Source: Lepidurus packardi (taxonomy: Eukaryota; Arthropoda; Branchiopoda; Notostraca; Triopsidae). From it: DNA of 64,000 nt. Within the stretch, counting starts at the first letter, position 1; every line of letters begins with the position of its first letter. Below are positions 14,568 through 46,265 of this stretch, in pieces. The notes beneath the pieces were generated by a model that was not told where the DNA came from, did no database searches, and was given only the letters and a program-made list of their open reading frames with translations. The DNA lies in the NCBI GenBank assembly GCA_023053545.1, contig JAKZAN010000003.1:901501-965500 (forward strand). The letters run 5' to 3'. The position numbers were made by a program, and so were the translations under genes.

Positions 14568-14622
<55 letters not shown>

Positions 14623-25370: not shown

Positions 25371-26827
25371 TGACCTCAACTCAGGTGAGACGACCCGCTG
25401 AACTTAAGCATATCAGTAGCGGAGGAAAAGAAACTAAAAAGGATTCCCTTAGTAGCGGCGAGCGAATAGGGATAAGCCCAGCACTGAACCTCGTATCTCC
25501 CAATACCGAGGAATGTAGTGTTCAGGAGAGAGGTGGTTTGCCTTTCCGGTGTTGTCCAAGTCCCCATGATCGGGGCTAGAGTCCGCAGAGGGTGTCAGGC
25601 ACGTAGTGACGCATCGCGACCGTGAACACTTTATCTCCTAAGAGTCGGGTTGCTTGAGAGTGCAGCCCTAAGCGGGAGGTAAACTCCTTTTAAGGCTAAA
25701 TACTGCCACGAGACCGACAGCAAACAAGTACCGCGAGGGAAAGTTGAAAAGAACTTTGAAGAGAGAGTTCAAGAGTGCGTGAAACCGTTCAGGGGGTTAA
25801 ACGGGTGGGCCCTCGAAGGTCGAACGGCATCTACTCCCGTTACCTGCATACGAGCCTGCGCCTGGACGAGCTGCATTTTGCGGCCGCCGGGCGTGGTACG
25901 CTTGGAGCGTGCAGGGGCAGCTAGTTGGATGCCTAGTAGGACTCCGCAACCGGCTGGGCTCGGTCGTCAGACGGGTTTTGAGGATCGACCCCCACGTGGG
26001 GTTGTATTTTTGAGATTCCCGGCGACCGCTCGGCCGTTTGTACTTGCTCACTGTTCCTCCGGGCAGACAAGCGTTGCGTTTGCCTTCACGGGCGCGGAGC
26101 GTTGTCGGTCTGTTTGAGGCTCCGGTGAAAAGCGCGGAGAGTAGGTCGGGTCCCACCCGACCCGTCTTGAAACACGGAACAAGGAGTCTAACATGTGCGC
26201 GAGTCGTCGAGTTGTACCAAACTCGAAGGCGAAATGAAAGTAAAGGATCGGTTTCCGAGCTGAGGGGAGATCCCGTTCTGCTTCTGTAGCGCGGGCGCAT
26301 CCCCGGGGCGTCTATACTGCGTTGCCAGTGAAACGAACCTAGAGCGTACACGTTGGGACCCGAAAGATGGTGACCTATGCCTGGCCAGGACGAAGCCAGG
26401 GGAAACCCTGGTGGAGGTCCGCAGCGATTCTGACGTGCAAATCGATCGTCGGAGTTGGGTATAGGGGCGAAAGACTAATCGAACCATCTAGTAGCTGGTT
26501 CCCCCCGAAGTTTCCCTCAGGATAGCTGGTGCTCGCAACAAGACACGGAGTTTCATCCGGTAAAGCGAATGATTAGAGGTCTTGGGGTCGAAACGACCTC
26601 AACCTATTCTCAAACTTTCAATGGGTGAGAAGCCCGGCTTAGCCTAAGCGAAGCCGTGGCAGTCGAATCCGAGCGCCCAGTGGGCCACTTTTGGTAAGCA
26701 GAACTGGCGCTGTGGGATGAACCAAACGTCTGGTTAAGGCGCCCAAACAACGCACATTCCGGAACCCACAAAAGGAGTTGGTTGCTAAAGACAGCAGGAC
26801 GGTGGCCATGGAGGTCGGAACCCGCTC

Positions 26828-26859
<32 letters not shown>

Positions 26860-27258
26860 CTAGCCCTTAAAATGGGAGGCGCTATAGCGTTGTGCCTATA
26901 CCAGACCGCCGGTGGCAGAGCCTACCCCCTGTAAAGGGGTGCACTGAGGCCCCGGTGAGTAGGGGGGTCGCCGCGGTGAGCGTAGAAGGGTCTGGGCGTA
27001 AGCCTGCCTGGAGCCGCCGCTGGTGCAGATCTTGGTGGTAGTAGCAAATACTACAGAGAGATCCTGGAGGACTGACGTGGAGAAGGGTTTCATGTGAACA
27101 GTGGTTGAACATGAGTCAGTCGGTCCTAAGCCGCAGGTGAAATCCGGCCCAGGGAACGGCGCGTCGACTGTTTTGTTACAAAACCTGACGAAGCGCCGCT
27201 GGGTTAGGCGAAAGGGAATCCGGTTCTAATTCCGGAACCCGGTTGCGGATACGTCCGA
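25371..27258 (+). rRNA. 28S rRNA, 5' segment, cut by the Polinton
   Basis: Begins TGACCTCAACTCAGGTGAGA and includes CCCGCTGAACTTAAGCATA and GTAACAACTCACCTGCCGAA. It ends at GGATACGTCCGA, where the Polinton starts. The last six bases (27253-27258) are the target duplication. The gene resumes at 42858. Confidence 0.96.
27253..27258. repeat. target-site duplication, left (GTCCGA)
   Basis: The 28S bases GTCCGA next to the Polinton left end. Repeated at 42858-42863 and present once in the uninterrupted 28S fragment at 50003-50008. Confidence 0.97.
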
Positions 27259-28485
27259 AGTAGTATAGGTACCACCATTACTGCCACCTCCATTACTGCA
27301 GCACCAATAGGAAGCCTCCATTTCCCCCAAGCCCCGCCCCTTTTACGGCTCCACCAATAGGATGCCTCCATTTCTCCCCTAGTCCCCTGCCCTGACGCCT
27401 GCGCAGTATGGTTTGACAACACCTAGTCCCTAGCGTTTCCGCCACTTTCACGTTGGCGCTGTCCTCACAATTGAGCAGCTCTCGTGTCGACAACAGTGTC
27501 CTCCGCCAACTTAAACTTAATTACCATTAAAGTTAAAGACACTTTTTCGGACTCGACATTAAAGTTAAAGACACTTTTTCGGACTCGACATTAAAGTTAA
27601 AGACACTTTTTCAGGATTACCATTAAAGTTAAGGACACTTTTTCAGATTCGACATTAAAGTTAAAGACACTTTTTCGAGAATAGTCATTAAAGTTAAAGA
27701 CACTTTTTCAGATTCGACATTAAAGTTAAAGACACTTTTTCAGAATCAACATTAAAGTTAAGGACACTTTTTCGAGAATAGACATTAAAGTTCAAAACAC
27801 TTTTTCAGGATTACCATTAAAGTTAAAGACACTTTTTCAGATTCGACATTAAAGTTAAAGACACTTTTTCGAGAATAGACATTAAAGTTAAAGACACTTT
27901 TTCAGAATCAACATTAAAGTTAAGGACACTTTTTCGAGAATAGACATTAAAGTTAAAGACACTTTTCGAGATTCATCATTTAAGTTAAAGACACTTTTTT
28001 CACAAAATACACATTTAAGTGAAGACACTTTTTCAAAAATAGACATTAAAGTTAATGACACTTTTTCGGAGATAGACATTTAAGTTAAAGACACTTTTTG
28101 TAAGTTTAACCTTTGAAATGTATTTTCTTTCAACAAATACAATTACAAATTTATTCAAAATAATGGTTGGTGGTTTCACTACACTGTAAGATTTTTTGGA
28201 GAGTGTGCCATCATGCTCATCAGGCTATCAACTGTCGCACACACACTGATAACACCAACTCACCAACTCTTGCGTTTGCGCAGCCCCTCTGGCTAGGATG
28301 CTTGTCAGCTCACACTCCCCTCAAGCTCCTGTGTTGGCCAATCCTCACTCTTCCATCGGTATGATTCCTCAGATGAGCGCGCTTGACAACCCCCTCTTTG
28401 ACATCTGTGCAACCCTTAGGCTGAACGGTTTCAAAATCCCCAATTCTCGCAACCGCACACCCACACGCCCATTCCATCCAGTGTA
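27259..28485 (+). repeat. left terminal inverted repeat of the Polinton
   Basis: The first 252 bp (27259-27510) match 42857-42606 exactly. They carry two related blocks with CCAATAGGA and CCTCCATTT, plus a GCCCCGCCCC box, which is promoter-like. A minisatellite follows (27526-28100), then a further near-identical stretch to about 28485 that includes GGAGAGTGTGCCATCATGCT. Confidence 0.9.
27526..28100 (+). repeat. minisatellite in the left TIR, about 18 units of 32-33 bp
   Basis: Unit core ATTAAAGTTAAAGACACTTT followed by TTC and an 8-10 base variable spacer (GGACTCGAC, AGGATTACC, GAGAATAGAC, AGAATCAAC). The spacers recur in a higher-order pattern. Frames seen across it are artefacts. Confidence 0.95.
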
Positions 28486-29620
28486 TCCTCACTCTTCCAT
28501 CGGTATCACTCCTCAGATGAGCACGCTTGACAACCCCTCTTTGTCATCTGTGCGATTATTTATTTGAGCATAAACTTTGTGATAATAATTACAGTTTGCC
28601 ATGATGTTGGAGTAAAACTTATGCGAGCGTCCACAAGAACTTCATTTATTTGTTATGTAGTAATATTTATTGTTATCACGTGTTACTACGTTTTTTTTGA
28701 TAACCTTCACAACAGCACTGTAAATACCAAATTTACCCAAAATGAATTTTAATATGTTGAATACATTTCAATACATACAAACATTTACAGAATTATCGTT
28801 GTTAAATGTGCAGGTGTACACAAACATTGGTTCTACAATTTCTGTAGAAGTCCACGTGGATTGCATATAGTCATTCCACAGGAAATGATCGGCAACAGCC
28901 ATCGACCAGGTCAGTCCATCATCAAGCAGACATCCGTTAATAGATTGAATAGAAGCGGTCTCACCACCAACGAATAGGTTCACAAGCATTCTTTGTTGAG
29001 AAGGTTCTGGAATAAACCGGAAAGCACCATCTTGCGCGCAAACCCAAATTTCGTTGAAATTGTTGTGAAACACAATCGGATCTTCGTTACGTATAAATTT
29101 AATACATGCTTGGCTCGAACTATCACACGTTACAAGACATTGATAACCATTTGCAGTTGCTGTGTAAATACGAAATTTACCCAAAGCAGTAACAAATCTT
29201 TTTGGAGAGTGTGCCATCATGCTCGTCGGACAGTCAACTGTCGCACACGCACACACTCTCTGATAACGTCAGTGCACTCTACACACACACTAGAATGTTC
29301 AACAATGCCAACTCTTGCGCTTGCGCACCTCTCAAGCTGAGATGTTGACCAACCCCACTCTTCCCTCAACACAACCCTCAGGTTAGTGTGTTTGACAACC
29401 CACACTGTTGCGTTCGCACACCCTCTCATGCAGGAGTGTTGACCAACCCATTCTTCCATCGACACACCCCTCAGACTTGACTGTGTGACTACCCCCATTG
29501 TTATGCATGCACACTCTCAGGCTAGTGTGTTTGACAACCCACACTCTTACCCCTGTGCACCCCATCACTGATTGGTTGATAAATTCGCTATCTCGCGTCG
29601 ACACAGTTTCCCCTACCCTT
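28200..29620 (+). repeat. imperfect subterminal repeats of the Polinton
   Basis: Blocks such as CACTCTTCCATCGGTAT, CCTCAGATGAGC and TTGACAACCC recur at 28345, 28490 and, more diverged, at 29330-29540. The segment CACACTCTCC...ATGATGGC with the start of the small gene at 29220 is also duplicated near 28215. This looks like repeated promoter or replication DNA; that role is inferred. Confidence 0.6.
28768..29220 (-). CDS. unknown Polinton protein, 150 aa
   Basis: I do not recognise this protein. The start is set at 29220 (MMAHSPKRFVTALGKF), because the upstream frame lies in the CA-rich subterminal repeat. It has no membrane segment or known motif, is rich in aromatic and beta-prone stretches (FRIYTATANGYQCLVTC, EIWVCAQDGAFRFIP) and is mildly acidic, with scattered Cys. 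It is the outermost gene on the left arm, minus strand, and the promoter side faces the subterminal repeats. The start region, ATG included, is copied in both terminal repeats, where the frame soon stops. Intact over its length, so probably a real gene. Confidence 0.55.
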   Translation of the reverse strand: MMAHSPKRFVTALGKFRIYTATANGYQCLVTCDSSSQACIKFIRNEDPIVFHNNFNEIWVCAQDGAFRFIPEPSQQRMLVNLFVGGETASIQSINGCLLDDGLTWSMAVADHFLWNDYMQSTWTSTEIVEPMFVYTCTFNNDNSVNVCMY

Positions 29621-29640
29621 GCAGTCGGCCGATCTTCTTT

Positions 29641-29646
29641 ATAAAC
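29641..29646 (+). promoter_or_regulatory. TATA box for the gene at 29688
   Basis: TATAAA 42 bp before the ATG of the plus-strand gene, after the subterminal repeats. Likely the core promoter. Confidence 0.5.
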
Positions 29647-29687
29647 AGCACACATCCTTTTAAAAGTATTCAGTCAGCTTTCTGAAT

Positions 29688-30299
29688 TTGATAATAATGT
29701 CAAACTCTAACAAGCAGACTGGAGCAGTCTCCAATTCCGGATTTAGAAGCGAGCGTAAATGGCAACCCGTCTACACTGAAGAAAGCCCAACCCGTTTTCA
29801 AGAGAAGACAGTGCATGTCAAAGGACATTGGCACTGCACACTCAGGAAACCGGCAAAACGTTGGGTGGTGGCAGTAAAAGTGTTACGAACCACCGGAGAG
29901 CCGACAACCTATGGCGCCACATACGGTTTTCCAACCGATCATCTCGAGGATGTAATCGAGGCGTTGCTAGTACTGAAAGAGTACATCAACAACCAAGAGG
30001 ACAAGTCTGAAGACTCTGATATTGAAATAGAAGAGGTGTGCCCACCAATTAAAGAAGACAAGAAACGTACCATTGTCAAAATGAACGCTTCCAATACGAA
30101 AGTAAAAGAATTCAAGAAGCGCAAGATTGTCAAAATGATGGAAGATTCTGACGCTGAAGTAGAAGAGGCGACACCCACGCTTGAAGACAAGAAGCATAAA
30201 CCCGCCATGGTTGAAGACTCTGATGTTGAAATAGAAGAGCATAAGTCAACCAAAGTAAAAGCTGTTGTCAATGGTCGCACTCTTCGTCCACGTTTTTAA
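29688..30299 (+). CDS. unknown Polinton protein with charged C-terminal repeats, 203 aa
   Basis: I do not recognise a family. The N-terminal half (residues 10-100) looks folded, with alternating beta-like strands (HVKGHWHCTLRKPAKRWVVAVKV) and then a helix (DHLEDVIEALLVLKEYIN). The C-terminal half is four acidic/basic repeats of the type EDSD(I/A/V)E(I/V)EE followed by KEDKKRTIVKM-like segments, ending in a basic tail. Such tails suggest nuclear nucleic-acid or histone contact; that is inference. The start may be at MIIMSNSN (29688) or the second Met. It is one of only two plus-strand genes of the element, convergent with the protease gene. Confidence 0.7.
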   Translation: MIIMSNSNKQTGAVSNSGFRSERKWQPVYTEESPTRFQEKTVHVKGHWHCTLRKPAKRWVVAVKVLRTTGEPTTYGATYGFPTDHLEDVIEALLVLKEYINNQEDKSEDSDIEIEEVCPPIKEDKKRTIVKMNASNTKVKEFKKRKIVKMMEDSDAEVEEATPTLEDKKHKPAMVEDSDVEIEEHKSTKVKAVVNGRTLRPRF

Positions 30300-30397
30300 T
30301 AACGGGGTATACAAATGTCTCTAATAACATAGAGATACACCATCTGTATTGTTTGACATTGTCAGAAATACACTATTTGTATTGAAATTTGTTTGTA

Positions 30398-30991
30398 TTA
30401 TTCATCATCATCATACAAAGCTCGACAGGTTTGGTCAGTACACACAATTCGTAGGGGTTTCAATTGTAATCCATATCTTTGTTGAATTTGCTTTTCAACC
30501 CAGCGATCTTGTTGTAAAAGTCGAGTTTTACCGCTATTGCAACGAAAAGGAATTAGAATATTTTTCAAAGAATGATTTCGAGCTCGCTGTAAAGCCACAT
30601 AAAGACACCATTGTCCACAAGCGCGCGATGTAGGATGTTGAAGGGTTAAAGGATGGTTTTGCCAGAGGTGCAAACCACACCATGTGGCAAAGTCCGGATG
30701 GTAGCTATGGATGCTTTGACCTAAACTATCGAAAAATTCAACTGGTTGCAGCGGGGTGACAATAGCCGGAACATAAATTAAAAGCCAATGAACACCTTCA
30801 TGTTGATGAGGGTGAGTGTTGCAAATAACAAGTAAAGGTTTCCCAGAGTTGGACTTGAGACGAGTAAGATGGTCGCGAGGAATAACCCAAGTTTCAAAAC
30901 CACGTTTTTGAATAACAGGGTCATGACGCAAGATATGATAAAGCTGGCTAGTATTCATAGCTAAATAAATCAAGACTTTTATCCCCTTCAA
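30398..30991 (-). CDS. adenain-like cysteine protease (maturation protease)
   Basis: Cleaves capsid precursors during virion maturation in adenoviruses and related elements. The catalytic set is visible with the adenain spacing: His68 (GVHWLLIYV), Asp88 (EFFDSLG), Gln118 (LTLQHP) and Cys125 (RACGQWC), with the Gln and Cys seven residues apart as in adenain. It is 197 aa from 30991, but the second Met (30958, MNTSQLYHILRHDP) is the better start because the first 11 residues are unlike the family. It is the last gene of the minus-strand block, just after the major capsid gene. Intact. Typical of Polinton PRO. Confidence 0.93.
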   Translation of the reverse strand: MKGIKVLIYLAMNTSQLYHILRHDPVIQKRGFETWVIPRDHLTRLKSNSGKPLLVICNTHPHQHEGVHWLLIYVPAIVTPLQPVEFFDSLGQSIHSYHPDFATWCGLHLWQNHPLTLQHPTSRACGQWCLYVALQRARNHSLKNILIPFRCNSGKTRLLQQDRWVEKQIQQRYGLQLKPLRIVCTDQTCRALYDDDE

Positions 30992-31066
30992 AGGTTTGGT
31001 GTGTATTGATGATTCAAAGGTTCACTGTCAACAAACATTTGAACTATGAAAACATAACTAATCAAC

Positions 31067-32359
31067 TCATTCAACGAGAATTTGACGAGCACTATCAATT
31101 TGCAACAAAGAATCTGTTTCGCTAAAAACAATCATAGTTAAAGAATCGACTACTGCTTTAGAAAAGCGAACATCTATTTTCAAATTCCCCTCTTTCAACA
31201 TTCCAAAACCTTCGGTGACGGGAATAATTTGAAAACCGTAAAGACGATAGTACTGTTGGTAAAGTTCACGTTCAAATGATAGTCCAACCTCTGAGTTCAC
31301 TAGATTGTAACAATCTAAAAGCGAGTAATAACCCAACAGGTATTCATCAGAACCAACAGGAATACTTGGAAAAGGAACTTCTTCATTGTTGAGGGACACG
31401 CTTATGGTAGATACATTATGATGTTGAAACAGGTAAGGATTGCTGAGCCAATCACCCATGAAAGCTTTAGTAGGCAAGAAACCGATAACTATCCGTCGAG
31501 GAATGCGACGCAGGTAGGAATCTTCCACAGTTTTTTGCATGGTGCCAGCAGGTATGGTAAAAGAGCGAACGTCAGTTTTAAGAAAAGGATATTTGGCTAC
31601 ATTACCCCCCAACAACATTTTCTCCAATCCTAAGCGATATTCAGAATTGAGAGTATGAACTCGCAACACCATTTGAGCTTTTTCGATAACAACTTTGTAG
31701 GAATAAGTCTGTGTTGCAGGTAACGCATTGTGGCTAATCAAGAAACTATCAGCTTGTCGATGTAACCGTAAGACGCAGCTTACATCGGGCAGCAACAGTT
31801 TGGGACATTGGAATAAATCCACATTCAAGACGCCCATAAGTTCCACTAATTTAGATTTTTCTGTGAAAGTTTTACGCAAAAGAGACGAACTACTGGTTTC
31901 TATAACGTCAGCATTTTCATCTTTGACGTAGAGAGCAGCAGTACCAAAACTTCGGTGATATTCTTCACCATGGCGTAGCAAACAATTTAAAAAACTTTTG
32001 TAACCGTAATTTTGCCCTGAAGAAGTGACAAGCGTATCGTTGAGATACAGATCAACTTGACTAAAGAGCGAATGAAGCAGATTGTTGACTGGAAAAACAG
32101 AATCTGAATCTGTAATATTAACCCCGTCGCTGCGTACAATTTTAACTTGCGCGTAAAGCTGGGGACGTTCCAGATCCAAAAATTGGTTGGAGTGGGTGGA
32201 AAAATTAAATTCTATAGGAGCTACATTGTCTTTGGATGACGCGCGAGTTTGAACAATAAAATCTTTAGATTGACTAATACCAGCTTCAGTATGAGGAATA
32301 CTCAACAAGTCTAGTTTGTCTGAAATGAAAGGTGTGCTACCCTCGCGGATGGTATCCAT
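31067..32359 (-). CDS. major capsid protein (double jelly-roll)
   Basis: A 430-aa protein in the position of the Polinton major capsid protein, between the basic protein and the protease. The sequence fits the double jelly-roll family: an N-terminal strand region (APIEFNFSTHSNQFLDLER), NNLLHSLFSQVDLYLNDTLV, then a loop and helix (NYGYKSFLNCLL) and a second barrel (RIPRRIVIGFLPTKAFMGDW, FERELYQQYYRLYG). It would form the trimeric hexon of an icosahedral shell. Its ATG directly follows the stop of the upstream gene with no gap. The frame is intact. Recognised by motifs and synteny; a structure model would settle it. Confidence 0.88.
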   Translation of the reverse strand: MDTIREGSTPFISDKLDLLSIPHTEAGISQSKDFIVQTRASSKDNVAPIEFNFSTHSNQFLDLERPQLYAQVKIVRSDGVNITDSDSVFPVNNLLHSLFSQVDLYLNDTLVTSSGQNYGYKSFLNCLLRHGEEYHRSFGTAALYVKDENADVIETSSSSLLRKTFTEKSKLVELMGVLNVDLFQCPKLLLPDVSCVLRLHRQADSFLISHNALPATQTYSYKVVIEKAQMVLRVHTLNSEYRLGLEKMLLGGNVAKYPFLKTDVRSFTIPAGTMQKTVEDSYLRRIPRRIVIGFLPTKAFMGDWLSNPYLFQHHNVSTISVSLNNEEVPFPSIPVGSDEYLLGYYSLLDCYNLVNSEVGLSFERELYQQYYRLYGFQIIPVTEGFGMLKEGNLKIDVRFSKAVVDSLTMIVFSETDSLLQIDSARQILVE

Positions 32360-32923
32360 CTAACCGAATATATCGGCGGCTGTTTTTCGTTTAATTGAGC
32401 GCTTCTTGACACAAGGTTTTTTACGTTTGACTGCTGAAGATTTACGTTTACGTCCGCTACCTGTTTGATAAGGTGCCACAGCACCCGCTAATTTTCGACG
32501 AGGACGACGACGACGGCGACGAGGTGTTTTCACAACTGTGGTGCTAGACATACTGAGCTGTCGTTGAAGAGGAGTTTTGTTTAAGAATTGAATGAACCCT
32601 TGTCCAACTTGAGCTTTTGCATCGTTGGTGTTGCGTTGCAAAATTTCTTGACCCATTTGTTGTAAACTTTCCATACCTCGAGTTTTCATGGTGTCTGTCA
32701 ATTTCTTACCCGATGAGACATCACGAGCCACGTTTCTAACTAGATGTCTGAGCGAGGGTGCTACTAATCCACGGAAAATTGGTATTATGTAGCGCGAGAA
32801 AAATCCATAACCACGTTGACGGTGGTTGCCTCGATAAAAAGTTTCACCTCCACCACCTCGCTGTTGTGGGTTTAACGCCTTCATATAACATTCAACCGAT
32901 AAACATCCCTTAAAAGGCGCCAT
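32360..32923 (-). CDS. basic core or minor virion protein
   Basis: 187 aa if started at 32923 (MAPFKGCLSVECYMK). I prefer this start because it overlaps the end of the upstream gene by only 14 bases. The N-terminal part has a Gly/aromatic patch (GGGGETFYRG, RGYGFFSRYIIPIFRGL) resembling the pX/pVI-like proteins of adenoviruses and adintoviruses. The C-terminal half is strongly basic (TPRRRRRRPRRK, GRKRKSSAVKRKKP), suited to DNA condensation. The gene sits between the minor and major capsid genes. The function is inferred from composition and place; no catalytic motif is present. Confidence 0.7.
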   Translation of the reverse strand: MAPFKGCLSVECYMKALNPQQRGGGGETFYRGNHRQRGYGFFSRYIIPIFRGLVAPSLRHLVRNVARDVSSGKKLTDTMKTRGMESLQQMGQEILQRNTNDAKAQVGQGFIQFLNKTPLQRQLSMSSTTVVKTPRRRRRRPRRKLAGAVAPYQTGSGRKRKSSAVKRKKPCVKKRSIKRKTAADIFG

Positions 32924-33779
32924 GAGAGCGAACTCGTTGTAGATGTAGTATAGCCGACACTGTCCCAGCTTGGAATAAAACAGGTAGACCAGTACCTGTC
33001 TTAATATAGATGTGAATTGTATCAATGTAACCTCGACTAAGGGGGATATAGTAATTGTGATTAAAACTAACTGAGACTAGGTCACCCTCTCTCATTTCGG
33101 TGGAAAGAGGGATGGTGCGTAAAAGAGGAGCGCTGGTATCCCCCACGAAACTCGATTGGATAATATCACAATAAACGTATAAATTGTGAGCACCACTTTT
33201 CAGATCTGGTGTTAGACTCGAATTACATTCCCCACGACCTTTGACCACCCGTAATTTGTCCTGATCCATGAACCCTAAGATAGCTTTAACCCGTGCCGGT
33301 AAAATAATTTCGCAAGCTTCCAAATCGGAACTCGGGGGTAGTTTCAAGCTCACTGTTTTCTTTTTGTCACGGTAAACAAATTCGACTCTCCGAGATTTAT
33401 CCGATAGAGTCGGAAACATACGGTCAAGACCACTGTTGAGATCGCTCACCAACCGATCTATAGAATCGTACACTTCCAAATTGTGTAAATTGATTTTAGT
33501 TAGCTCTTCCTTCGATGAAATTTCTACTACTTCTTTGGTTAAACCATCAGTCTGTTTTTTAGATTTGATTTCACTGTGTGCAATCATAAAATTCTCTTCT
33601 TCGCTTAAAGTATGCATACTGTTCACAAATAGAAATTCCACCAAAGCCACCTCATACTCATCTACAGGGACATGTATTGGTTCACACAATAGAGTTCGAT
33701 AATTACTCATAGTATTATGAGGATAATGCGACATGGATGAGTTAGAAGGTAACGTGATATACTTTTCATTGTGGGTCAT
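32910..33779 (-). CDS. minor capsid (penton-like) protein
   Basis: 289 aa. The position next to the major capsid gene and the segment ending YIPLSRGYIDTIHIYIKTGT, with VYCDIIQSSFVGDTSAPLLR, match Polinton minor capsid proteins, which adopt a single jelly-roll and form pentons at the vertices. The N-terminus (ITLPSNSSMSHYPHNTMSNY) resembles the penton N-arm. The start overlaps the last four bases of the integrase gene, and its end overlaps the basic-protein gene. Intact. Confidence 0.85.
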   Translation of the reverse strand: MTHNEKYITLPSNSSMSHYPHNTMSNYRTLLCEPIHVPVDEYEVALVEFLFVNSMHTLSEEENFMIAHSEIKSKKQTDGLTKEVVEISSKEELTKINLHNLEVYDSIDRLVSDLNSGLDRMFPTLSDKSRRVEFVYRDKKKTVSLKLPPSSDLEACEIILPARVKAILGFMDQDKLRVVKGRGECNSSLTPDLKSGAHNLYVYCDIIQSSFVGDTSAPLLRTIPLSTEMREGDLVSVSFNHNYYIPLSRGYIDTIHIYIKTGTGLPVLFQAGTVSAILHLQRVRSHGAF

Positions 33780-34984
33780 GGTGACTGTCGACTAGATCGC
33801 ATGCGACCCGAATACAGATTGCTGGGAGGTTTTAAAGTCTTCCGTGTGCGGACAAAGTCTTGCCAGAAAGGTGTTAACTCTCGAGCGTTTACCCAAGTAT
33901 TGAACTCGGTTGGCCAACCTTTCCATGTTATATAGTACTCGGTCTCACCCACCGAGTTGCGACGTTGTTTGAGCACTTTTTCGATGGGGTACAAAGCTTT
34001 AAAGTTAGGTGGCGCCACATGGGTTAATTCAATACCGTAAAATTGACCAATAATATCTTCATTTTGGAGATCAACTAAATTGTAAGTTACAGGTTGAGTA
34101 AGATTCACCGTTTCAATCTTGTATATCTCGTATGTGTTTTGAACAATATAGCCTTTATTAAAAAATGGTTTTGTATCGTTTTTAATCCGTACGTAATCAC
34201 CCACACTGAAGGTGGGCTGACGAGTTTTAACAGCTGCACTGCGCATCTTATGAATATGTCGAGCTACCTCATCTTGGTTTTCCACGGTGACTTCCACAGG
34301 AGCCCGACCTATGGTTCGATGGTAACTCCGATTGTAGTTATCCACTAATTGTGGCAACACATCTATGAAACGTTCGGTATGATGTTGAGTCATGTAACGC
34401 GAGATTCGCTCTAGGAGGGTGCGATGGACTCGTTCCACAATCGGTGCTTTAGTTTCTTGAGTCCGAGTTAGATAAAATTTGACACCTACGTCTTTAAGAT
34501 ATTTTTGGAACGCGTGATTGAGAAATTCTGTACCCTGATCCGTGTTGAAATGTTTGGGTATTAATCTTGTGTTTGTAATATGTTGTTGTAAGGTTGCGAG
34601 TACAGTAGGTCCAGTCTTGTTGGGGATAGGATAGACCCAGAGATAACGACTATGAACATCAATAATAGTAAAAAGAAAGTTCATTCCATTATTCATTCGA
34701 CTCCAGCGTTGTACATCGACCAAATCAGCCTGCCAAAGATCATGAAGCGTAGAAGTGATTACATATCGACGTGGAAAGCGACGAGGATTGTTCCGATGTA
34801 GAGTATAACTATTAAGATAGCTCAAAGCTTGACGGGCGGTGGCAAGGTTAATATTAGTGGCTTTCGGGTATTGCTGTTTGGCGTAACGCAACAAACGTTG
34901 TAAACCACCATAAGCACCCAAAGACGAAGGATCCGTATAGAGTTGATGCCAATCGTCTCGAGTAAGCCATGTCTTTTCTACCAT
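33776..34984 (-). CDS. retroviral-type integrase with C-terminal chromodomain
   Basis: 402 aa. The rve core has the catalytic triad Asp87 (WQADLVDV), Asp149 (FNTDQGTEF) and Glu184 (PIVERVHRTL); the last two are 35 residues apart, the classic DD35E. Upstream is a helical domain in place of a clear HHCC finger. Near residues 335-390 a chromodomain-like segment (EYYITWKGWP..FNTWV, with the aromatic cage positions) follows a beta-rich domain. It inserts the element and makes the 6-bp duplication. The chromodomain may read methylated histones and steer insertion toward silent chromatin, such as inactive rDNA. The start is 1 bp after the upstream stop. Confidence 0.96.
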   Translation of the reverse strand: MVEKTWLTRDDWHQLYTDPSSLGAYGGLQRLLRYAKQQYPKATNINLATARQALSYLNSYTLHRNNPRRFPRRYVITSTLHDLWQADLVDVQRWSRMNNGMNFLFTIIDVHSRYLWVYPIPNKTGPTVLATLQQHITNTRLIPKHFNTDQGTEFLNHAFQKYLKDVGVKFYLTRTQETKAPIVERVHRTLLERISRYMTQHHTERFIDVLPQLVDNYNRSYHRTIGRAPVEVTVENQDEVARHIHKMRSAAVKTRQPTFSVGDYVRIKNDTKPFFNKGYIVQNTYEIYKIETVNLTQPVTYNLVDLQNEDIIGQFYGIELTHVAPPNFKALYPIEKVLKQRRNSVGETEYYITWKGWPTEFNTWVNARELTPFWQDFVRTRKTLKPPSNLYSGRMRSSRQSP

Positions 34985-34985
34985 T

Positions 34986-35846
34986 TCAAGCTAAATTTTG
35001 CCACTGAGGACTTGATCCAGCTCGAGCGCGTTTATACGATCGGGTGACTCTAGGGCTGGGTGGAGTGATACCGCGCGAATGGAGCAGTTTCAAACGTTCA
35101 ATCTCTTTTAGCCGTTTCTCTTTAACAATAAGCTGGGTGGGAAAATTAATATCGGCTAACGCGCGTGAAAAATCATCCATTCGAGGTAAAAAGCGACCCT
35201 TGTTGTGTGAAAAGAGATCTCTCATGTAATCTGACACATGGCTGTTTTCTATAGTTTCCCCATATAGTTTTAGAGTACTGTCAGGATTAACTGTAATTAT
35301 GTGTGCATATTCAGGTTTTGTAAGATACTCGCTAGCTGTCAACGCTTTCTCACGATATTGGTCGTCCACTTTAACCATAAATTGGGTAACGCTGGGGGTC
35401 TCTTCAACACTTGACTGCAATGGACTGTCATACATGTCGGGTTTAGAAATGTTATTAATTGGTGTTTGAAAAGGTTGTGGTGAAAAGCTGCGAGTGGCGT
35501 TTACACGTGTGGGTGTTAAATCACTCTCAACACCCTCATGTTTTAAAGATGGAACCGTGGGAACAGAGGGTAAAGAAACATGTGTTGACGATGCAGCCCT
35601 CTCATGACCTGGGTGAGCAGCCTTGTAGCGTTGAAACGTTTTTTCAAACAGGTGCAACTTATTCTCAATGCTTAATTCAGGATTATTGAGAATATTCCGC
35701 ATTTCCTCTTCCGCCCGATAAAATTCTGTTAGTTTGAAACTGGGGGGCGGTTTTATGGCAGACTGCGATTCCCGATGCAAAACTTGATCAATTTTGTTGG
35801 CTATGTCTAGCGGCACTAACCGCATGGGACGCGCTGCTTTGGCCAT
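34986..35846 (-). CDS. conserved unknown Polinton protein, 286 aa
   Basis: I recognise the general type (found between the polymerase and integrase in Polintons) but no function. Residues 1-90 are helical (EEEMRNILNNPELSIENKLH). 90-170 is a Ser/Pro/Thr-rich linker, and 170-250 a possible folded part (YAHIITVNPDSTLKLYGETI). The tail is basic (RVTRSYKRARAG). The 5' end overlaps the preceding gene by 59 bp in another frame. Intact. A structural or scaffold role is possible. Confidence 0.75.
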   Translation of the reverse strand: MAKAARPMRLVPLDIANKIDQVLHRESQSAIKPPPSFKLTEFYRAEEEMRNILNNPELSIENKLHLFEKTFQRYKAAHPGHERAASSTHVSLPSVPTVPSLKHEGVESDLTPTRVNATRSFSPQPFQTPINNISKPDMYDSPLQSSVEETPSVTQFMVKVDDQYREKALTASEYLTKPEYAHIITVNPDSTLKLYGETIENSHVSDYMRDLFSHNKGRFLPRMDDFSRALADINFPTQLIVKEKRLKEIERLKLLHSRGITPPSPRVTRSYKRARAGSSPQWQNLA

Positions 35847-36165
35847 GGCGACGTAAAAAAGCTAAAGCGGGGTTAAGTACGTTTAAAATAAATCCTCCAC
35901 CCTTCTGTACTATTCGTTTATGACGATAGCGGAAACTCTGTTTGGATTGAGCCAAATCTCGAAGAATAGACTTGAAACGACGTAGCTTTTGTTTCTCTTT
36001 TTCCTGAAGAGGGATAACACCCTTGACTAAATTCAAGATGATTTCGCAAATAACGTTAATAAGGGGTCGGTCAGCGTTCTGAAGGATAATTTGACGGAGT
36101 TTGGGCTGACAGCGACATAAAGTTTTCAAATAAGGTTTGTATTTCTTCACCTGTTTAAGACACAT
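35788..36165 (-). CDS. conserved small basic Polinton protein, 125 aa
   Basis: A family commonly seen in animal Polintons: a basic helical protein (VKKYKPYLKTLCRCQPKLRQ), the central INVICEIILNLVKGVIPL, then a KIVQKGG-F motif (RIVQKGGGFILNVLNPAL) near the C-terminus with a hydrophobic tail. The function is unknown to me. A membrane-active or minor virion role is possible from the hydrophobic end. Overlaps the next gene. The last 20 residues (HGQSSASHAVSAARH) may be variable. Confidence 0.75.
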   Translation of the reverse strand: MCLKQVKKYKPYLKTLCRCQPKLRQIILQNADRPLINVICEIILNLVKGVIPLQEKEKQKLRRFKSILRDLAQSKQSFRYRHKRIVQKGGGFILNVLNPALAFLRRHGQSSASHAVSAARHSQQN

Positions 36166-36211
36166 CCTCTCGTTGTCTGTTTACCTCCAAAGCCAGTGTG
36201 CGACTAAAGGT

Positions 36212-36355
36212 TTACCCACTCGAAGATCGCGCTTTAAAGGCTAAAATAAGACGCGTCATAATCGACAACCATTCAGCTAGAGTTTGAAGGGTTTGCGTGG
36301 CAACCTGTCGACAGCGAGTGCGCCATTTCTTCCCAAATCTTTTATCATGAACCAT
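36212..36355 (-). CDS. possible small basic protein, 47 aa
   Basis: A short frame between the polymerase end and the 125-aa gene: MVHDKRFGKKWRTRCRQ, then a helix with LAEWLSIMTRLILAF. Basic and amphipathic, with no family recognised. The gap between its neighbours is otherwise empty in a very compact element, which is the main support. Confidence 0.35.
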   Translation of the reverse strand: MVHDKRFGKKWRTRCRQVATQTLQTLAEWLSIMTRLILAFKARSSSG

Positions 36356-36418
36356 CTTGCAGCTTCAAAGGTTGAGTGACAACTAAACTAGACATGGGTT
36401 ATAGACACAATTTAAACT

Positions 36419-39400
36419 TTATTCATCATCTTCATTACAATATCCGTAAGCGTGACTGGTAACAAGATCTGGGAGCCAGAAACGTTTATCATCAAGAGCA
36501 GACAATGACAATTTACGAGTTTGATAAGTATAAATTTGATGGTTGAATGAGCGGAGAGTGGTATTGGTAGTATATACCTCGCTGCGCTCACCATACAACA
36601 CTTGACGGTAAAGGTCTAACGATAATTCACGACGGGTGGCTTCTCGGGTAGTGCCCTTGGCCTTTCGTTGTTCTTCACCCGTGTCAAAACGTATACAATA
36701 GAGTTTGGGTCGTAAAGCTACAATTTCCACAATACGGTTTTGTCCAGCCTCGTTCTTAAACATGCCTAGACGTTTATCGTTGTCAGCATAGTAATATGGA
36801 CTGGATGGATGTTGGTTGGAGGTATCAAAGTGGGTGGTTAGACGATGACACATCTCTTCCCAGAATCCGGTAGGGCTTTCCACACTGTAGCAAAAACTGT
36901 CGGTATCGGTAAAAACCAAGCGGCAGCGCGAACCAAAATGTGGGCGAATAATGTTGTAGTGGAAATCGTACATATGCATTTTGGCTAATTCCAATATTGC
37001 AAAACCTACAAGAATTGGTTTGTTATAAAAAACGTCGGTTTTTCTCATCTGGATGAGTGCTAAATCATTCGAAATGCGTCGTGCATGGCTGAAGGCTGGA
37101 CTGGCTGTTAAACTCACAAGAGTTTTCTCGTTGTTTATTACGTAGATGTTGACTCGGTTGTCTACGTTTTCTACAGTTTTACCTGAAATGTTAACCGAAG
37201 GTTAGTCAAAAGTATGAGTTTAAGTTAGAATGATTTTACCAAAGATGGAATTATTCATCAGTTTGAACGATTCACGATCAGCGTCATTGGTGGCGGCAGC
37301 TCGCAAAGCGGTGTTGCATTCGATGTAGGGCTGAAACAGCGTTGTCTGACGAAATCTGATACCACCATGCATTCGGGTCACTAACAATCCGTGACTTAAA
37401 GCCAGCTGCAACATTCTGTAATGAATCAGATATTTTTCTTTAGCGTTTAAGGTGACACATAGTTTTTCAACACGAGAGGGAAATGTTTTCCCATCCTTCA
37501 GATAATGCTCTTGGATTGCGGGGCTTAGCATATCCCATGTTATTTGTTCTTTGCGGGGGAGAAAGGGAAAATCGTCGTGTTCTTCGTGTAAATGGGCAGG
37601 ATATTCCATGTCGACTAGTAGGGCATAACCATAGAGCGAATCTGGGGTTAACGAGAGGATTTCGTTCAAACTGGGGCATTCTTTGGTTGATAACCAGCAA
37701 ATTCCATCGGTGGGTAAAGCTTGAACCATCGCCCATCCATACAAGTTGTTAGCATCGATATATTCGATGGAGCTATTAGGGCGTGTAGGATCATAATGCG
37801 GCAAGTCTGGTAAATTGGCTACAGCATGACGTTGGGACACCATGGTTAGCCCCCCTCGCACGTTTTGTTTAACCATACTATGCATGGTTACATCGGTCAT
37901 AAGTTCCATCGTCACCCCCGTTGTGTACAAACAGGCGTTCCAGCTAAAATGCGAAATGCTGTAAAAATGGGCTACATCCAAACCCGAATGGTGATAGGTT
38001 GTTTGACGTAAGGTGGAAAAGCAGTCGGCTAGAATGCGGACATCGCACTCTAAATACAAGTTGTGATAGTCGCGTAATGTGCGACATTGGAAAGTATCCC
38101 AAACGTTTTGTGCATGAATGTAATCCTCATCTGAAACTGAGCAACCAGTTAGGGTGGAGAAAAAGGCCAGTTGGGATGGTAAATGTGGTAAATCGAGAGC
38201 TGTCAGACTAGTCATGAACTCGTAGGGAAATATCCCTTTGCGCGCTAAGAGTTTGAGTTTCTCTTGATTCCCCGCTACCGCAGCCGCACGGTTCAAACAT
38301 TGAAAGGAGTGGAGCCCCTTTTTCAAGAGAACTTGAGCCCAACGTTCCAAACTAGTGTTCATAAATTGAAGACTGTCCAGAAAGCGAACGTTATCAACTT
38401 TAAAAGTCAAGAACTTTTCCATGGATTTGGGGATAATGTCAATGTCTTGCCCGTAATGCTCCAATGCTTGACAGATGAAGTGTCCATCGTAATTCCTAGA
38501 AACAACAGATTATTTGGATTCGGTTTATCGGTTTTCACAGATACTTACTGTAAATTGTGGAAGTAGACAGGTAATTCGTAGTTTTCCAATTTACAATGGA
38601 GATTACAACCTCGGTGAGCAATACCCCGGAAAGAACCGTCAAAATGATCATGATCTATCATACGCTCGGACAAATCTTGGGGTAAGGGTTTCTTGCAGTG
38701 TACGCATATAGTAGCTGTATGTCGGGCTCTTATTGCCATTGACACATCTTTTTCATTGAGGGGAAAATTTGTTGAGCGCACCACTTGTTCAAGATTTGCT
38801 GCTGTTTCTAAGATGTTTTGTAGGAAAATCTGACCTGCATTAGGGCCAACATAGCGCTGGTATGCCACTTCACTCCCCTGCAGGTCGAGCACCAAATAAC
38901 AAAAAGATAGAGCTTCGTGACGATGAAGCTTTTGATTGACGGGAGAGTGTTCTTCATCAGTTGGATCATAAGAAACTAAAAGAGATTCAAAATCGGCAAA
39001 AGCTATGTAAGGGGCACGTTGTGCTGCATTAAAACATCGCATCTGAACAAAATCGTTCTTCCCAGGAGTGGGGAGTCGAACTGCTTTTTGTTTGTTTTCC
39101 AAACAGTACATTTTATGAGCATCTAGGGACCGGGAACTTTTAAACGCGTTTAGACATTTGAGACAATAATGATCCTTATGTAGTTGATCTTTACCCAACA
39201 AACGATTTGGTGAAAGAATAGGCCAGAAATGTCCTTGTCCCGGACCGGTGCATGTATACAAAAGATTAACCGGTTCTTGGCAGAGGGTGGTGTTGGGTTT
39301 GAAAAAGGTTTTCCCAGAAATACGAAAAGGATAAATATTTCGAGGGGTGGCAACAAGAGTTGGTGGGAGTTTAGAGCGTTTAGGATTTTCTGCTTCTTCA

Positions 39401-40485
39401 TCACTCTCGTCAAAACATCCAAACGGTAAAGTATCAAAAGCTAAGATATTAATAGCGATTGAATGGGCTTCTTCAAAAGCAGTTATGTCTTGAATTTTAA
39501 CAGGATAGGTTAGCACTTGTGGATTAATGGTCGGTAATCTGTCGGGATAACGGGCGAAGAGAGCGTCTAAGCTTTTAGCACTATGATGTTTTATAAAAAA
39601 CTGAGAATTTTCGTCAGTTGCAGCATGTTGACGAGCTAGCACTGCTTTGACAGCATAGACAAAACATTGATTGCCGCAACGTTCGATATTAACAACAGCT
39701 TTGCGTTTAGCGATGTTGGTAGGTAACCGTATCTGGTGAGAGTCGTTACCACTACCCGCCATAGGAACAAACGTGGTCACTGAAGCTCGAAGCTCACTAA
39801 TGTACTCCATCCGCCAACCAGAACCAGCTTGATTCTGACGATTGTGGATCACGTTGGCAATATGATCAAATGCATTTTGCATAACTTGATTTAAATCTGA
39901 AGTTGGGAGCACGATAACATACACACTGTGGAAAAAACGGGGGTAGCGTTCGCTGCGATTGATTTCAGGAGTGTTTATGATTTTACTCATAACGCTATGA
40001 ACTACAAATTTGATTTTCACAGACAAACTCTTTCGTAGTTGAGCTTTCAATAATCCGAGAATTTGTGAACTATACTCGCTCATCAATTGTTCGGCTGTTA
40101 CAATCGGGTAACGCTCAGGTCCAACAATCAATCGATATTCCCGCAAATGTCCAGCTAGTGTACTATTCAATTCAAAAAATTCATTGTGGTTAGATTCAAT
40201 CGATTGCGGTGGTGGTATATTGGGTGTGAGAGGTTCTGCAACACTTGTTGGAGGGGGTGGTGAAAGGGCAATCGTTGGCAGAGGGTTTAAAATTTGACGA
40301 CGACGTTTCAAACGTCGTTGTCGACGCTTGATGCCGCGATTGAGAGTTCGAGTACGGATTGATGGGTGTGGAGCGGGGAATTCTTCGCCAGCACCTGCTT
40401 GTGACTCGTCATCATGATCAACATCAATACCTAATTCACGAATCAAATCGCCTAAGATTGGACTATATTCAGAATTCATTGTCAA
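36419..40485 (-). CDS. protein-primed DNA polymerase B (with two introns)
   Basis: Three exons: 40485-38549, 38495-37240 and 37182-36419. Together they give 3,957 bases, an exact 1,319 codons. The N-terminal third has acidic and basic linkers. A motif CVHCKKP...DHDHFDGSFRGIAH..CN (exon 1 end) resembles a zinc HNH/endonuclease VII fold. Exonuclease: FADFESLL, then FHNLQ-NYDGHF across intron 1 and a later Exo region. Palm motif A is IDANNLYGW, motif B KLMNNSIFGK (split by intron 2) and motif C FTDTDSF. It copies the element with a protein primer, as in adenoviruses. Introns of 53 and 57 bp have GTAAGT/CTAG and GTAAAA/CAG borders. It diverges from the ATPase gene across 89 bp. Confidence 0.96.
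37183..37239 (-). other. spliceosomal intron 2 of polB (57 bp)
   Basis: Donor GGTAAAAT and acceptor TTTCAG. It lies inside the conserved palm motif B, so splicing is needed for a working enzyme. The joined reading is NNSIFGKTVENV. Confidence 0.88.
38496..38548 (-). other. spliceosomal intron 1 of polB (53 bp)
   Basis: Donor GTAAGT and acceptor TTTCTAG. It splits a Gln codon, and the joined reading gives the conserved YFHNLQNYDGHF exonuclease region. Without splicing a stop follows at once. Confidence 0.88.
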
Positions 40486-40574
40486 ACGCTGTCCGAGGGC
40501 TACTGAGCACGATTTTCATGGCGTGTTAGTGCTTAAAGACTCGGAACTAGAAGAGGAGGAACTCATTCGTTAGT
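40486..40574. promoter_or_regulatory. divergent promoter region, polB and ATPase
   Basis: 89 bp between two head-to-head starts. It must hold both core promoters or a shared one. No clear TATA box seen. Confidence 0.45.
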
Positions 40575-41237
40575 ATGGAGGCGTTGTTTAGACATCCAGT
40601 GCGCATCCTCATTGCTGGTCCTTCACAATCGGGTAAAAGCGAGGTGGTAGCCCAGCTGCTTCGACAACTATCGTCAATGTTCACTCCCTGTCCTGAACGT
40701 ATACGCTATTGTTATGGAGCGTGGCAACCGCTTTTTGCACAACTCCAGTCGGAGTTGGACAATATTACTTTTCAAGCCGGGTTTGACGAAAATGATATTA
40801 AAGAAACTTTACCAGCCAACAGTTTACTCATTCTGGATGATCTGATGGAAACTATAGATGGTAAATCAAAAGCATTGGAGAACATCTTTACCAAACATTC
40901 CCACCATGCCAATATCTCCGTCATCATGATTACACAAAACCCGTTTTATAGCAACCTTCGCACCATCTCTCTTAATTGCTCCCACATGTTTCTAATGAAA
41001 ACTGCTCGAGATGTTACTCAAATTCGAGCTATTGGAGCTCAAATGTTCCCTGGTAAACTGAGATATTTTATGGATGCGTACGAGCATGCCTGTGAAGAAC
41101 CTTACTCTTATTTGATGCTCTCCTTCGATCCCAACACTCCTGACACTCATCGTCTTATGTCAGACGTTTTCAACGCGAAAGGCGAGCCTATTGTATATGA
41201 AAGAGTGCACCAACCTGTAAAAGTTTCACGAAAATAA
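40575..41237 (+). CDS. FtsK/HerA-type genome-packaging ATPase
   Basis: 220 aa. Walker A is GPSQSGKS (residues 15-22) and Walker B LLILDDL (about 84-90), followed by VIMITQNPF, a sensor-like motif. This is the A32-like packaging ATPase of Polintons and related viruses, which pumps DNA into the shell. It is one of the plus-strand genes, divergent from polB. The stop codon overlaps an AATAAA polyadenylation signal. Intact. Confidence 0.95.
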   Translation: MEALFRHPVRILIAGPSQSGKSEVVAQLLRQLSSMFTPCPERIRYCYGAWQPLFAQLQSELDNITFQAGFDENDIKETLPANSLLILDDLMETIDGKSKALENIFTKHSHHANISVIMITQNPFYSNLRTISLNCSHMFLMKTARDVTQIRAIGAQMFPGKLRYFMDAYEHACEEPYSYLMLSFDPNTPDTHRLMSDVFNAKGEPIVYERVHQPVKVSRK

Positions 41238-41238
41238 A
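41233..41238 (+). terminator. polyadenylation signal overlapping the ATPase stop
   Basis: AATAAA includes the TAA stop (41235-41237). A very tight 3' end, common in compact viral genomes. Confidence 0.6.
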
Positions 41239-41318
41239 ACATTTTGTTATAAACATGTTTTTCAGATGTTTGATGTAAAATGTGGTGATATCTTTCAAAT
41301 ATTAGTCTCGATTATTTT

Positions 41319-41762
41319 TCACAATTTTGTATTTACATTAATTCGTTCTACATCTCGGGTTAACCAATAAGTGAATTTGTAGGTTTGGAACAGCGTACAA
41401 AGAGTCGGGGTTGTTTTATGTTTAGGACAATAGGGTGGTTCAAAAGGGATAAAAATTTCGTTGACTGCAGGGCAATTGTATCCCACCAAGTTCTCAATAG
41501 GTTGTTGAAGTCCTTGTGAGAGAATTTCAAACGAAGGATCACCCCATGTTAAAACTCGATATTTTCGGATTGAGTGGGCTAAATGATTGAAGAAAACCCC
41601 CATCGTGTCAAAGGGCCAGTCTTGATCATGGTCATTTCCCCATGTGAAATGTCGATAGTAAAAATTGTTCTGTGATAATTTGGAATTAATAAAACATGAA
41701 GTTAACTCCACAGGGATGCTGTCAACTAATCTCAAGTAGACTACAGCCAAGTCTTCAGCCAT
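41319..41762 (-). CDS. unknown Polinton protein, 147 aa
   Basis: I do not recognise it. Starts MAEDLAVVYLRLVDSIP. It has an aromatic-rich middle (NNFYYRHFTWGNDHDQDWPF), a CP..EIFIPFEPPYCPKH stretch with paired Cys/His, and no membrane segment. It sits just inside the right terminal repeat and is convergent with the ATPase gene. Intact frame, compact placement; probably a real gene of unknown role. Confidence 0.6.
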   Translation of the reverse strand: MAEDLAVVYLRLVDSIPVELTSCFINSKLSQNNFYYRHFTWGNDHDQDWPFDTMGVFFNHLAHSIRKYRVLTWGDPSFEILSQGLQQPIENLVGYNCPAVNEIFIPFEPPYCPKHKTTPTLCTLFQTYKFTYWLTRDVERINVNTKL

Positions 41763-41849
41763 TCTTATGCTCTAGCAGAGTTTATTGAACCACCGTGTTG
41801 ATCTGTGTTGGTTCCACTGGTTTCATAAATGGGAGACGTGCTGGTGATA

Positions 41850-42857
41850 GCCTTGAGTTTGTCAAACACTGGTTGGAATGTGTGTGTGGGTGTGTGGTTG
41901 TGAGAATTGGGGATTTTGAAACCATTCAGCCTAAGGGTTGCACAGATGTCAAAGAGGGGGTTGTCAAGCGCGCTCATCTGAGGAGTCATACCGATGGAAG
42001 AGTGAGGGTTGGCCAACACAGGAGCTTGAGGGGGGTGTGAGCTGACAAGCATCCTAGCCAGAGGGGCTGCGCAAACGCAAGAGTGGGTGAGTTGGTGTTA
42101 TCAGTGTGTGTGCAACAGTTGATAGCCTGATGAGCATGATGGCACACTCTCCAAAAAATCTTAAAGTGTAGTGAAACCACCAACCATTATTTTGAATGAA
42201 TTTGTAATTGTATTTGTTGAAAGAAAATACATTTCGAAGGTTAAACTTACAAAAAGTGTCTTTAACTTAAATGTCTATCTCCGAAAAAAGTGTCATTAAC
42301 TTTAATGTCTATTTTGAAAAACTGTCTTTACTTAAATGTATGTGTGTATTTTGTGAAAAAAAAAGTGTCTTTAACTTAAATGATGAATCTCGAAAAGTGT
42401 CTATTCTCGAAAAAGCGTCCTTAACTTTAATGTTGATTCTGAAAAAGTGTCTTTAACTTTAATGTCTATTCTCGAAAAAGTGTCCTTAACTTTAATGTCG
42501 AATCGGAAAAAGTGTCTTTAACTTTAATGGTAATCCTGAAAAAGTGTCTTTAACTTTAATGTCGAGTCCGAAAAAGTTTCTTTAACTTTAATGGTAATTA
42601 AGTTTGTTGGCGGAGGACACTGTTGTCGACACGAGAGCTGCTCAATTGTGAGGACAGCGCCAACGTGAAAGTGGCGGAAACGCTAGGGACTAGGTGTTGT
42701 CAAACCATACTGCGCAGGCGTCAGGGCAGGGGACTAGGGGAGAAATGGAGGCATCCTATTGGTGGAGCCGTAAAAGGGGCGGGGCTTGGGGGAAATGGAG
42801 GCTTCCTATTGGTGCTGCAGTAATGGAGGTGGCAGTAATGGTGGTACCTATACTACT
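41850..42857 (-). repeat. right terminal inverted repeat of the Polinton
   Basis: Mirror of the left repeat, shorter because its minisatellite has about 10 units instead of 18. The inner limit is approximate, where similarity to the left side fades near 41850. Confidence 0.9.
42255..42600 (-). repeat. minisatellite in the right TIR, about 10 units
   Basis: The same unit as the left array in inverted orientation, with fewer copies. One unit pair is fused by a short deletion near 42396-42410. Confidence 0.93.
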
Positions 42858-42863
42858 GTCCGA
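42858..42863. repeat. target-site duplication, right (GTCCGA)
   Basis: Second copy of the 6-bp duplication, after which 28S continues GCTCTCGTAGCTCGTC. Confidence 0.97.
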
Positions 42864-43400
42864 GCTCTCGTAGCTCGTCATGGTAACATGACATGACCCG
42901 GAGAAGCTGGCGGGGACCCCGGGAAGAGTTTTCTTTTCTGCTTGAGGGGACGAGACCCTGGAATTCTGTCGCGGAGCGATAGGGTTTTGACCCCGAATAG
43001 CGCCGCAGGTCTGCGGCGTCCGTGGTTTCTTGCCGGCCCTTGAAAATACGGGGGAGGGCCACGTGGACTTTCCAACCGGACCGTACCGATATCCGCATCA
43101 GGTCTCCAAGGTGAACAGCCTCTAGTCGATAGATGAATGTAGGTAAGGGAAATCGCCAAATTGGATCCGTAACCTCGGGATAAGGATTGGCTCTGAGGGT
43201 CGAGGTGGTCGGGCTTGGACGCGAAACCGGTAGTGCCCACGTGCTGGGCCTGGGCGAGGCCGTTCGCGGTCGAACCCGGTCCCTAGCCTAAGCCACCGGG
43301 GGAACGTCCTCGCAGTAGAGTAGGATAGTTTGGGCTTGACCCATTCATGCCTCTCTCTCGGCTGCCAATGAACGACCAACACAGAACTGGCACGATCCAG

Positions 43401-43434
<34 letters not shown>

Positions 43435-43459
43435 CGATGGCCGTAAGAGGGTGGTGACG

Positions 43460-43493
<34 letters not shown>

Positions 43494-43510
43494 AGTGAAG
43501 AAATTCAACG

Positions 43511-43551
<41 letters not shown>
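42858..43551 (+). rRNA. 28S rRNA, middle segment, Polinton to R2 site
   Basis: Continues the second 28S gene after the Polinton (GCTCTCGTAGCTCGTC), through GTAGGTAAGGGAAATC and CGCAGTAGAGTAGGATAG, to ATGACTCTCTTAAG. R2 copy 2 starts at 43552. Confidence 0.96.
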
Positions 43552-43568
43552 CAATTGGGGTAGCAATT

Positions 43569-43659
43569 GGGGTAGCAATTGATCGATTCCCGCCTCCTCG
43601 TGGCGCTACCCTGGGATAGCCGCAATTAAATTTGACGGTAAAGCTAAGAGGAATTGATC
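43569..43659 (+). ncRNA. HDV-like self-cleaving ribozyme, R2 copy 2
   Basis: P1 GGGGTAGC (43569-43576) with GCTACCCT (43605-43612). P2 GATCGATTCC (43581-43590) with GGAATTGATC (43650-43659). P3 GCC/GGC with loop TCCTCGT, close to the HDV L3 loop. A short P4-like GCCG/CGGT stem and J4/2 AAAGCTAAGA with the expected active-site C follow. Predicted cleavage is just before 43569. Confidence 0.85.
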
Positions 43660-46058: not shown

Positions 46059-46062
46059 ATCG

Positions 46063-46113
46063 GCTCTCTCTCGGCTGCCAATGAGCGACCAACTCAGAAC
46101 TGGCCCGATCCAG

Positions 46114-46147
<34 letters not shown>

Positions 46148-46172
46148 CGATGGCCGTAAGAGGGTGGTGACG

Positions 46173-46206
<34 letters not shown>

Positions 46207-46223
46207 AGTGAAGAAATTCAACG

Positions 46224-46265
<42 letters not shown>
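46063..46265 (+). rRNA. 28S rRNA fragment (repeat of the R2 5' flank)
   Basis: CTCTCTCGGCTGCCAATGAG to CTCTTAAGG, a second copy of the 200 bp before the R2 site. It shows that copy 2 was joined to another R2-bearing 28S by unequal recombination. Confidence 0.93.

Follow-up and report, generated by a model that had tools for sequence, protein, structure and literature searches.

The window analysed here, a stretch of 64,000 nucleotides of the genome of the notostracan branchiopod Lepidurus packardi (assembly GCA_023053545.1, contig JAKZAN010000003.1, positions 901,501 to 965,500 of the forward strand), carries a Polinton, or Maverick, of 15,599 bp at positions 27259-42857, inside a 28S rRNA gene. 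Rfam identifies both flanks as 28S, and the perfect 6-bp target-site duplication GTCCGA borders the element (27253-27258 on the left, 42858-42863 on the right, both on the plus strand); the interval 27253-42863 given in an earlier note on this DNA takes in both copies of the duplication. The contig, referred to below as C16, is 2.05 Mb long and belongs to an assembly of 108.6 Mb in 344 contigs. A nuclear COX1 copy in this assembly shows 94% identity to Lepidurus, 92-93% to Triops and at most 89% to the remaining animals among the 120 matches listed of 7997 scored, which fits a tadpole shrimp or a near relative. The site is occupied in 1 of the 15 copies of 28S that reach it. The 14 other copies, including those at 1.90-2.05 Mb of C16, run straight through it; 13 of them match the 18 bases up to GTCCGA exactly, and to the left of the site 3 of the 14 retain just 37 bp of 28S. 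The sequence check, the Rfam flanks and the 14 empty sites thus confirm what the earlier note had described, a Polinton inserted in 28S with a perfect GTCCGA duplication and identical 252-bp ends.

Termini of the element and state of the host gene

The element begins with AGTAGTATAGG at 27259 and ends with CCTATACTACT at 42857, giving the end motif AGTAGT...ACTACT. Its terminal inverted repeats (27259-28484, plus strand, and 41866-42857, minus strand) are composite. The outer 252 bp of the two ends are 100% complementary and thus form perfect inverted repeats. Internal to them lies an array of 32-bp tandem units that is unequal between the arms and longer on the left (27525-28099), followed by inner arms of 423 nt that are 97% alike (28062-28484 and 41866-42288). 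The left junction sequence occurs once in the window, against none expected from 100 shuffles. No rDNA-derived sequence was found inside the element, the best match being 16 bp long with an E value of 0.042. The 6-bp duplication and long terminal inverted repeats, together with genes for a family B DNA polymerase (polB), an integrase, a packaging ATPase and a predicted double-jelly-roll major capsid protein (MCP), place the element among the Polintons/Mavericks.

The 5' part of the host gene (25371-27258, plus strand, RF02543) ends with the left GTCCGA and shares 98-99% identity with some ten further full-length copies of 28S in the genome. The gene resumes at 42858-43551 (plus strand) and is broken a second time, 694 bp downstream of the Polinton, at the R2 site (43551). 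A piece of an R2-like retroelement is inserted there (43552-46063, plus strand), with an open reading frame (ORF) at 43756-45480 that matches RVT_1 and stops inside this reverse transcriptase match. Beyond this piece the window holds fragments of 28S only, including one of 62 bp near 48710-48771, and Rfam detected no large 28S 3' part downstream of the R2-like insertion in the window. In an alignment with ten other copies, the host gene shows 21 private substitutions over about 2.1 kb and has therefore left concerted evolution; nine of the ten carry 0 to 6 such differences and one (L044) carries 63. The host 28S is a relic that is out of use.

Bases 494-693 of the right-flank 28S recur after the R2-like piece at 46064-46263 with 99% identity, and another element, with a zinc-finger ORF at 46785, comes next; the arrangement, noted at 43552-46263, is one of tandem R2-like insertions with a repeated 28S stretch of about 200 bp. 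The 28S 3' part of a second rDNA unit lies at 13915-14946, directly after an R2-like element with broken frames (10480-13914) that itself follows a piece of 28S.

No 3' part of 28S shows up in the fetched flank of any of the 14 other copies that span the Polinton site. Since an uninterrupted R2 site was found at no place in the whole assembly (28-base pattern, up to 2 mismatches), the assembly appears to lack the working rDNA array. Dispersed 28S fragments, about 90-95% alike, that contain the stretch around the Polinton site were observed at 49922-50146 of the window, at 402 kb, 741 kb and 1018 kb of C16, at 2048 kb of contig C3 and at 11727 kb of C1. A 28S-like sequence of 74-82% identity at C329:25006-26260 is perhaps from another organism, and COX1-like genes on C52, C214 and C43, stop-free in the standard code, perhaps belong to bacterial contaminants or symbionts.

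Coding capacity, constraint and age

The integrase (33776-34984, minus strand, 402 aa) is retrovirus-like, of the rve type (PF00665, E 1.2e-16), and carries a C-terminal chromodomain (PF00385). The packaging ATPase (40575-41237, plus strand, 220 aa) is Pox_A32-like and matches PF04665 with an E value of 2.4e-6, above the family cut-off. A protein of 430 aa is encoded at 31067-32359 on the minus strand; its relatives align with it end to end at no more than 35% identity, its structure model has a pLDDT of 85.0 and a pTM of 0.85, and Foldseek relates this model to the capsid proteins of iridovirus, Sputnik and mavirus (E 4e-16 to 6e-13). On the strength of these relatives and of the predicted fold, we identify it as the double-jelly-roll MCP. 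A profile of the MCP sequence retrieved nothing relevant among PDB sequences, and searches of IMG/VR for relatives, with the MCP alone and with a 40-row MCP alignment, yielded no confirmed locus.

The polymerase gene lies on the minus strand in three frames. Its first coding piece (38549-40479) has a weak match to recombination endonuclease VII, the second (37240-38495) matches PF03175 (E 3.4e-13) and the third (36419-37182) is alone without a Pfam match; the enzyme is presumably protein-primed. The pieces are separated by gaps of 53 bp (38496-38548, GTAAGT...TTCTAG) and 57 bp (37183-37239, starting with GTAAAA and ending with TTTCAG), which look like introns rather than breaks. We rejected a real break in polB because both gaps have GT-AG ends and because all 30 full-length genomic copies of the middle piece share the same 429-aa frame, 29 of them stop-free; the gap sequences were inspected in the window copy and the other copies were compared over the middle piece. 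Consequently, the earlier view that every core gene is without a visible break holds for the open frames of the integrase, the second polB exon and the MCP, and needs amending for polB as a whole, which consists of three exon-like pieces.

Two further assignments, made by eye, were confirmed by no library. The presumed adenain-like cysteine protease (30398-30958, minus strand, 186 aa) has no match in Pfam, PHROG or PDB, and the presumed penton or minor capsid protein (32910-33779, minus strand, 289 aa) has no informative match in Pfam and, in PHROG, only a weak one to a family without an assigned function. A basic protein of 187 aa encoded at 32360-32923 (minus strand) is presumed to be a minor virion protein. 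No function is assigned to the remaining ORFs, which encode about 150 aa (28768-29217, no Pfam match), 286 aa (34986-35846), 125 aa (35788-36165) and 147 aa (41319-41762) on the minus strand and 200 aa (29697-30299, sub-threshold Pfam matches only) on the plus strand.

The insertion is young. The outer ends of the window element show 0 differences in 250 positions, where eight further paired elements show 0 to 3. Of the 20 other MCP copies compared, the six nearest each depart from the MCP gene of the window element by 3 of 1290 bases. With 1 of 15 sites occupied, these values support the suggestion that the insertion was a recent, single event. The genome contains 42 matches to the MCP gene, 27 of them full-length stop-free frames, and 27 of the 29 full-length integrase copies are stop-free. 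Polymorphism among 21 of the 27 full-length MCP copies comprises 24 nonsynonymous and 19 synonymous changes, a ratio of 0.39 with a P value of 0.0023 relative to a simple neutral model that assumes no transition bias; picking stop-free copies imposes no selection against missense changes. These comparisons point to a young Polinton family that was recently under constraint.

Distribution of the family and origin of the 28S insertion

A 25-base end pattern (up to 3 mismatches) detected 67 ends of the family in the genome, and its reversed control detected none. The 350 bp outside each of the 67 ends were compared at an E value of 1e-5 with the 28S, 18S, spacers and R2-like pieces of the window; 2 of the 67 flanks match rDNA, both from the window element, in a test that could overlook short or diverged rDNA pieces. 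Perfect 6-bp duplications are present in 15 of 22 adjacent end pairs and represent 14 different sequences, with TACTGA occurring twice. The family thus has no detectable preference for rDNA sequence and shows no repeated insertion at one rDNA site. The idea that the element could be the first sign of a lineage favouring rDNA, as R2 does, finds no support in these flanks and duplications, and the single 28S copy proves not to be evidence of rDNA targeting.

Some family ends share flanks, partly as palindromes, and therefore not all ends are separate insertions. Ends in opposite orientation with 99-100% identical outer flanks, corresponding to palindromes or inverted duplications, were observed on C16 at 455918/470846, 1603392/1632107 and 1658170/1707478, and the same arrangement at C5:11291700/11308820.

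The distribution of the family is uneven: C16, which makes up 1.9% of the assembly, holds 31 of the 67 ends and 8 of the 15 elements flanked by perfect duplications. A P value of 2e-35 for the number of ends on C16 is not relied on, as it assumes independent ends, which they are not. The 28S sequence up to the R2 site amounts to 38,078 bases, or 1.85% of C16, so that at the density of this contig (about 15.5 elements) 0.29 insertions in 28S are expected and the probability of at least one is 0.26. One insertion is unremarkable at this density; it would not be so under uniform insertion over the whole assembly.

We consider it very likely that the element is a young copy from a multi-copy Polinton/Maverick family, probably mobile to this day, and that a single insertion by its own integrase brought it into a 28S gene that is out of use. 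The choice of target was probably accidental, a matter of chance and not of an affinity for rDNA, and we see an ordinary kind of element in an unusual place. As the duplication, the inverted repeats and the intact integrase frame suggest, the integrase would attach the termini of the linear element to target DNA cut with a 6-bp stagger. The open genes suggest that the element would be replicated by the protein-primed DNA polymerase that it encodes; these genes, the constrained capsid gene and the predicted capsid fold suggest that it may be packaged into virions with a double-jelly-roll capsid. With family copies concentrated on the contig that bears rDNA, an occasional 28S would be struck, and the host would presumably lose little by an insertion into a relic that an R2-like element had already disabled.

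Several observations weigh against this account. Between the inner arms there are 14 differences in 423 positions, and 3 of the right-arm states are absent from all other fetched ends covering the region. Among the 22 adjacent end pairs, seven are not flanked by matching duplications, and another 23 ends have no partner. Were insertion uniform across the entire assembly, 0.014 Polintons would be expected in 28S, and the chance argument therefore depends on taking the C16 concentration as given. Furthermore, the lack of an uninterrupted R2 site means that an unrepresented working rDNA array could hold more Polintons.

It is on this last point that targeting of 28S by the family or a branch of it, in the manner of R2 or Pokey, could be argued: the window copy would be the visible part of a population hidden in an array that the assembly, devoid of an uninterrupted 28S, leaves unseen, and the integrase does have a chromodomain. 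However, 65 of the 67 end flanks are without an rDNA match, the target duplications vary and 14 of the 15 copies that reach the site are empty, even those near the end of the same contig, which makes such targeting very unlikely. The empty sites also bear on a false join of a Polinton contig into an rDNA contig. Both rDNA and multi-copy elements are difficult to assemble, but a false join would not yield an exact 6-base duplication at the exact ends of the element; with the 14 empty sites, this leads us to reject misassembly as exceedingly improbable.

A preference of the family for heterochromatin deserves tentative consideration. The integrase chromodomain would steer insertion to the repeat-rich, rDNA-bearing contig, and the 28S insertion would be a by-product. 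Some chromodomains of the CDYL/CHD1/CBX/HP1 group bind methylated H3K9, and, to go by the title of one study, chromodomains reportedly direct retrotransposons to heterochromatin. The chromodomain of the Polinton integrase aligned best with that of CDYL and also with CHD1, CBX and HP1 domains, which, together with the abundance of ends and of perfectly duplicated elements on C16, speaks for such a preference. Nevertheless, selection against insertions elsewhere could yield the same distribution, as could haplotype duplicates or local duplication, several ends having common flanks; the richness of C16 could be explained no less simply by local duplication or by retention in gene-poor DNA. A bolder proposal, rather unlikely in our judgement, is that the HP1/CDYL-like chromodomain lets the integrase recognise heterochromatin and so steer a capsid-encoding element to the chromatin surrounding rDNA, where copies would be tolerated and stay intact, the 28S insertion marking this niche. 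If true, this would give chromodomain-guided retrotransposons a virus-like counterpart. With its constrained capsid gene, an integrase that bears a chromodomain and a markedly uneven spread over the genome, the family makes it testable whether Polintons choose heterochromatin.

Relation to known systems

A search of the open-licence PMC literature found no title on a Polinton/Maverick insertion in 28S, rDNA or rRNA genes and no paper on a Maverick in Lepidurus. The setting within 28S may therefore be unreported so far. The element itself resembles the vertebrate Mavericks as described in one study (PMC8097293): it shares with them the 6-bp duplication, the (AGT)2//(ACT)2 ends, the polB, integrase, ATPase and capsid protein genes and a constrained capsid gene, and its 15.6 kb fall within the reported 12.7-24.6 kb. 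In contrast, intact vertebrate Mavericks are reported in that study as intronless, whereas polB here apparently has two short introns. From its closest database relatives found, the Polinton differs with identities of 35% for the MCP and about 41% at best for the integrase. With nearly 30 close copies, open capsid, integrase and polymerase frames and a small branchiopod genome, the family is useful in its own right.

R2 is known from Lepidurus and Triops, with several lineages in Lepidurus couesii (PMC3581529). Like the Polinton, R2 interrupts 28S, and an R2-like element lies in the very gene that holds the Polinton; R2 is site-specific and moves by reverse transcription, neither of which applies to the Polinton.

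A second parallel is Pokey, the piggyBac element of Daphnia, which according to PMC3849761 and PMC3315735 is likewise a DNA transposon in branchiopod 28S with further copies elsewhere in the genome. These papers report that insertions of Pokey recur at a single TTAA site and that the transposon contains repeats derived from rDNA, whereas the Polinton has one copy in 28S, at another site, with a 6-bp duplication and without rDNA-derived sequence. The identity of the element with Pokey, or with piggyBac in general, is ruled out by its GTCCGA target, which is not TTAA, and by its rve-type integrase, which is not a piggyBac transposase. The Polinton of L. packardi thereby adds a DNA transposon other than Pokey to those observed within a 28S gene.

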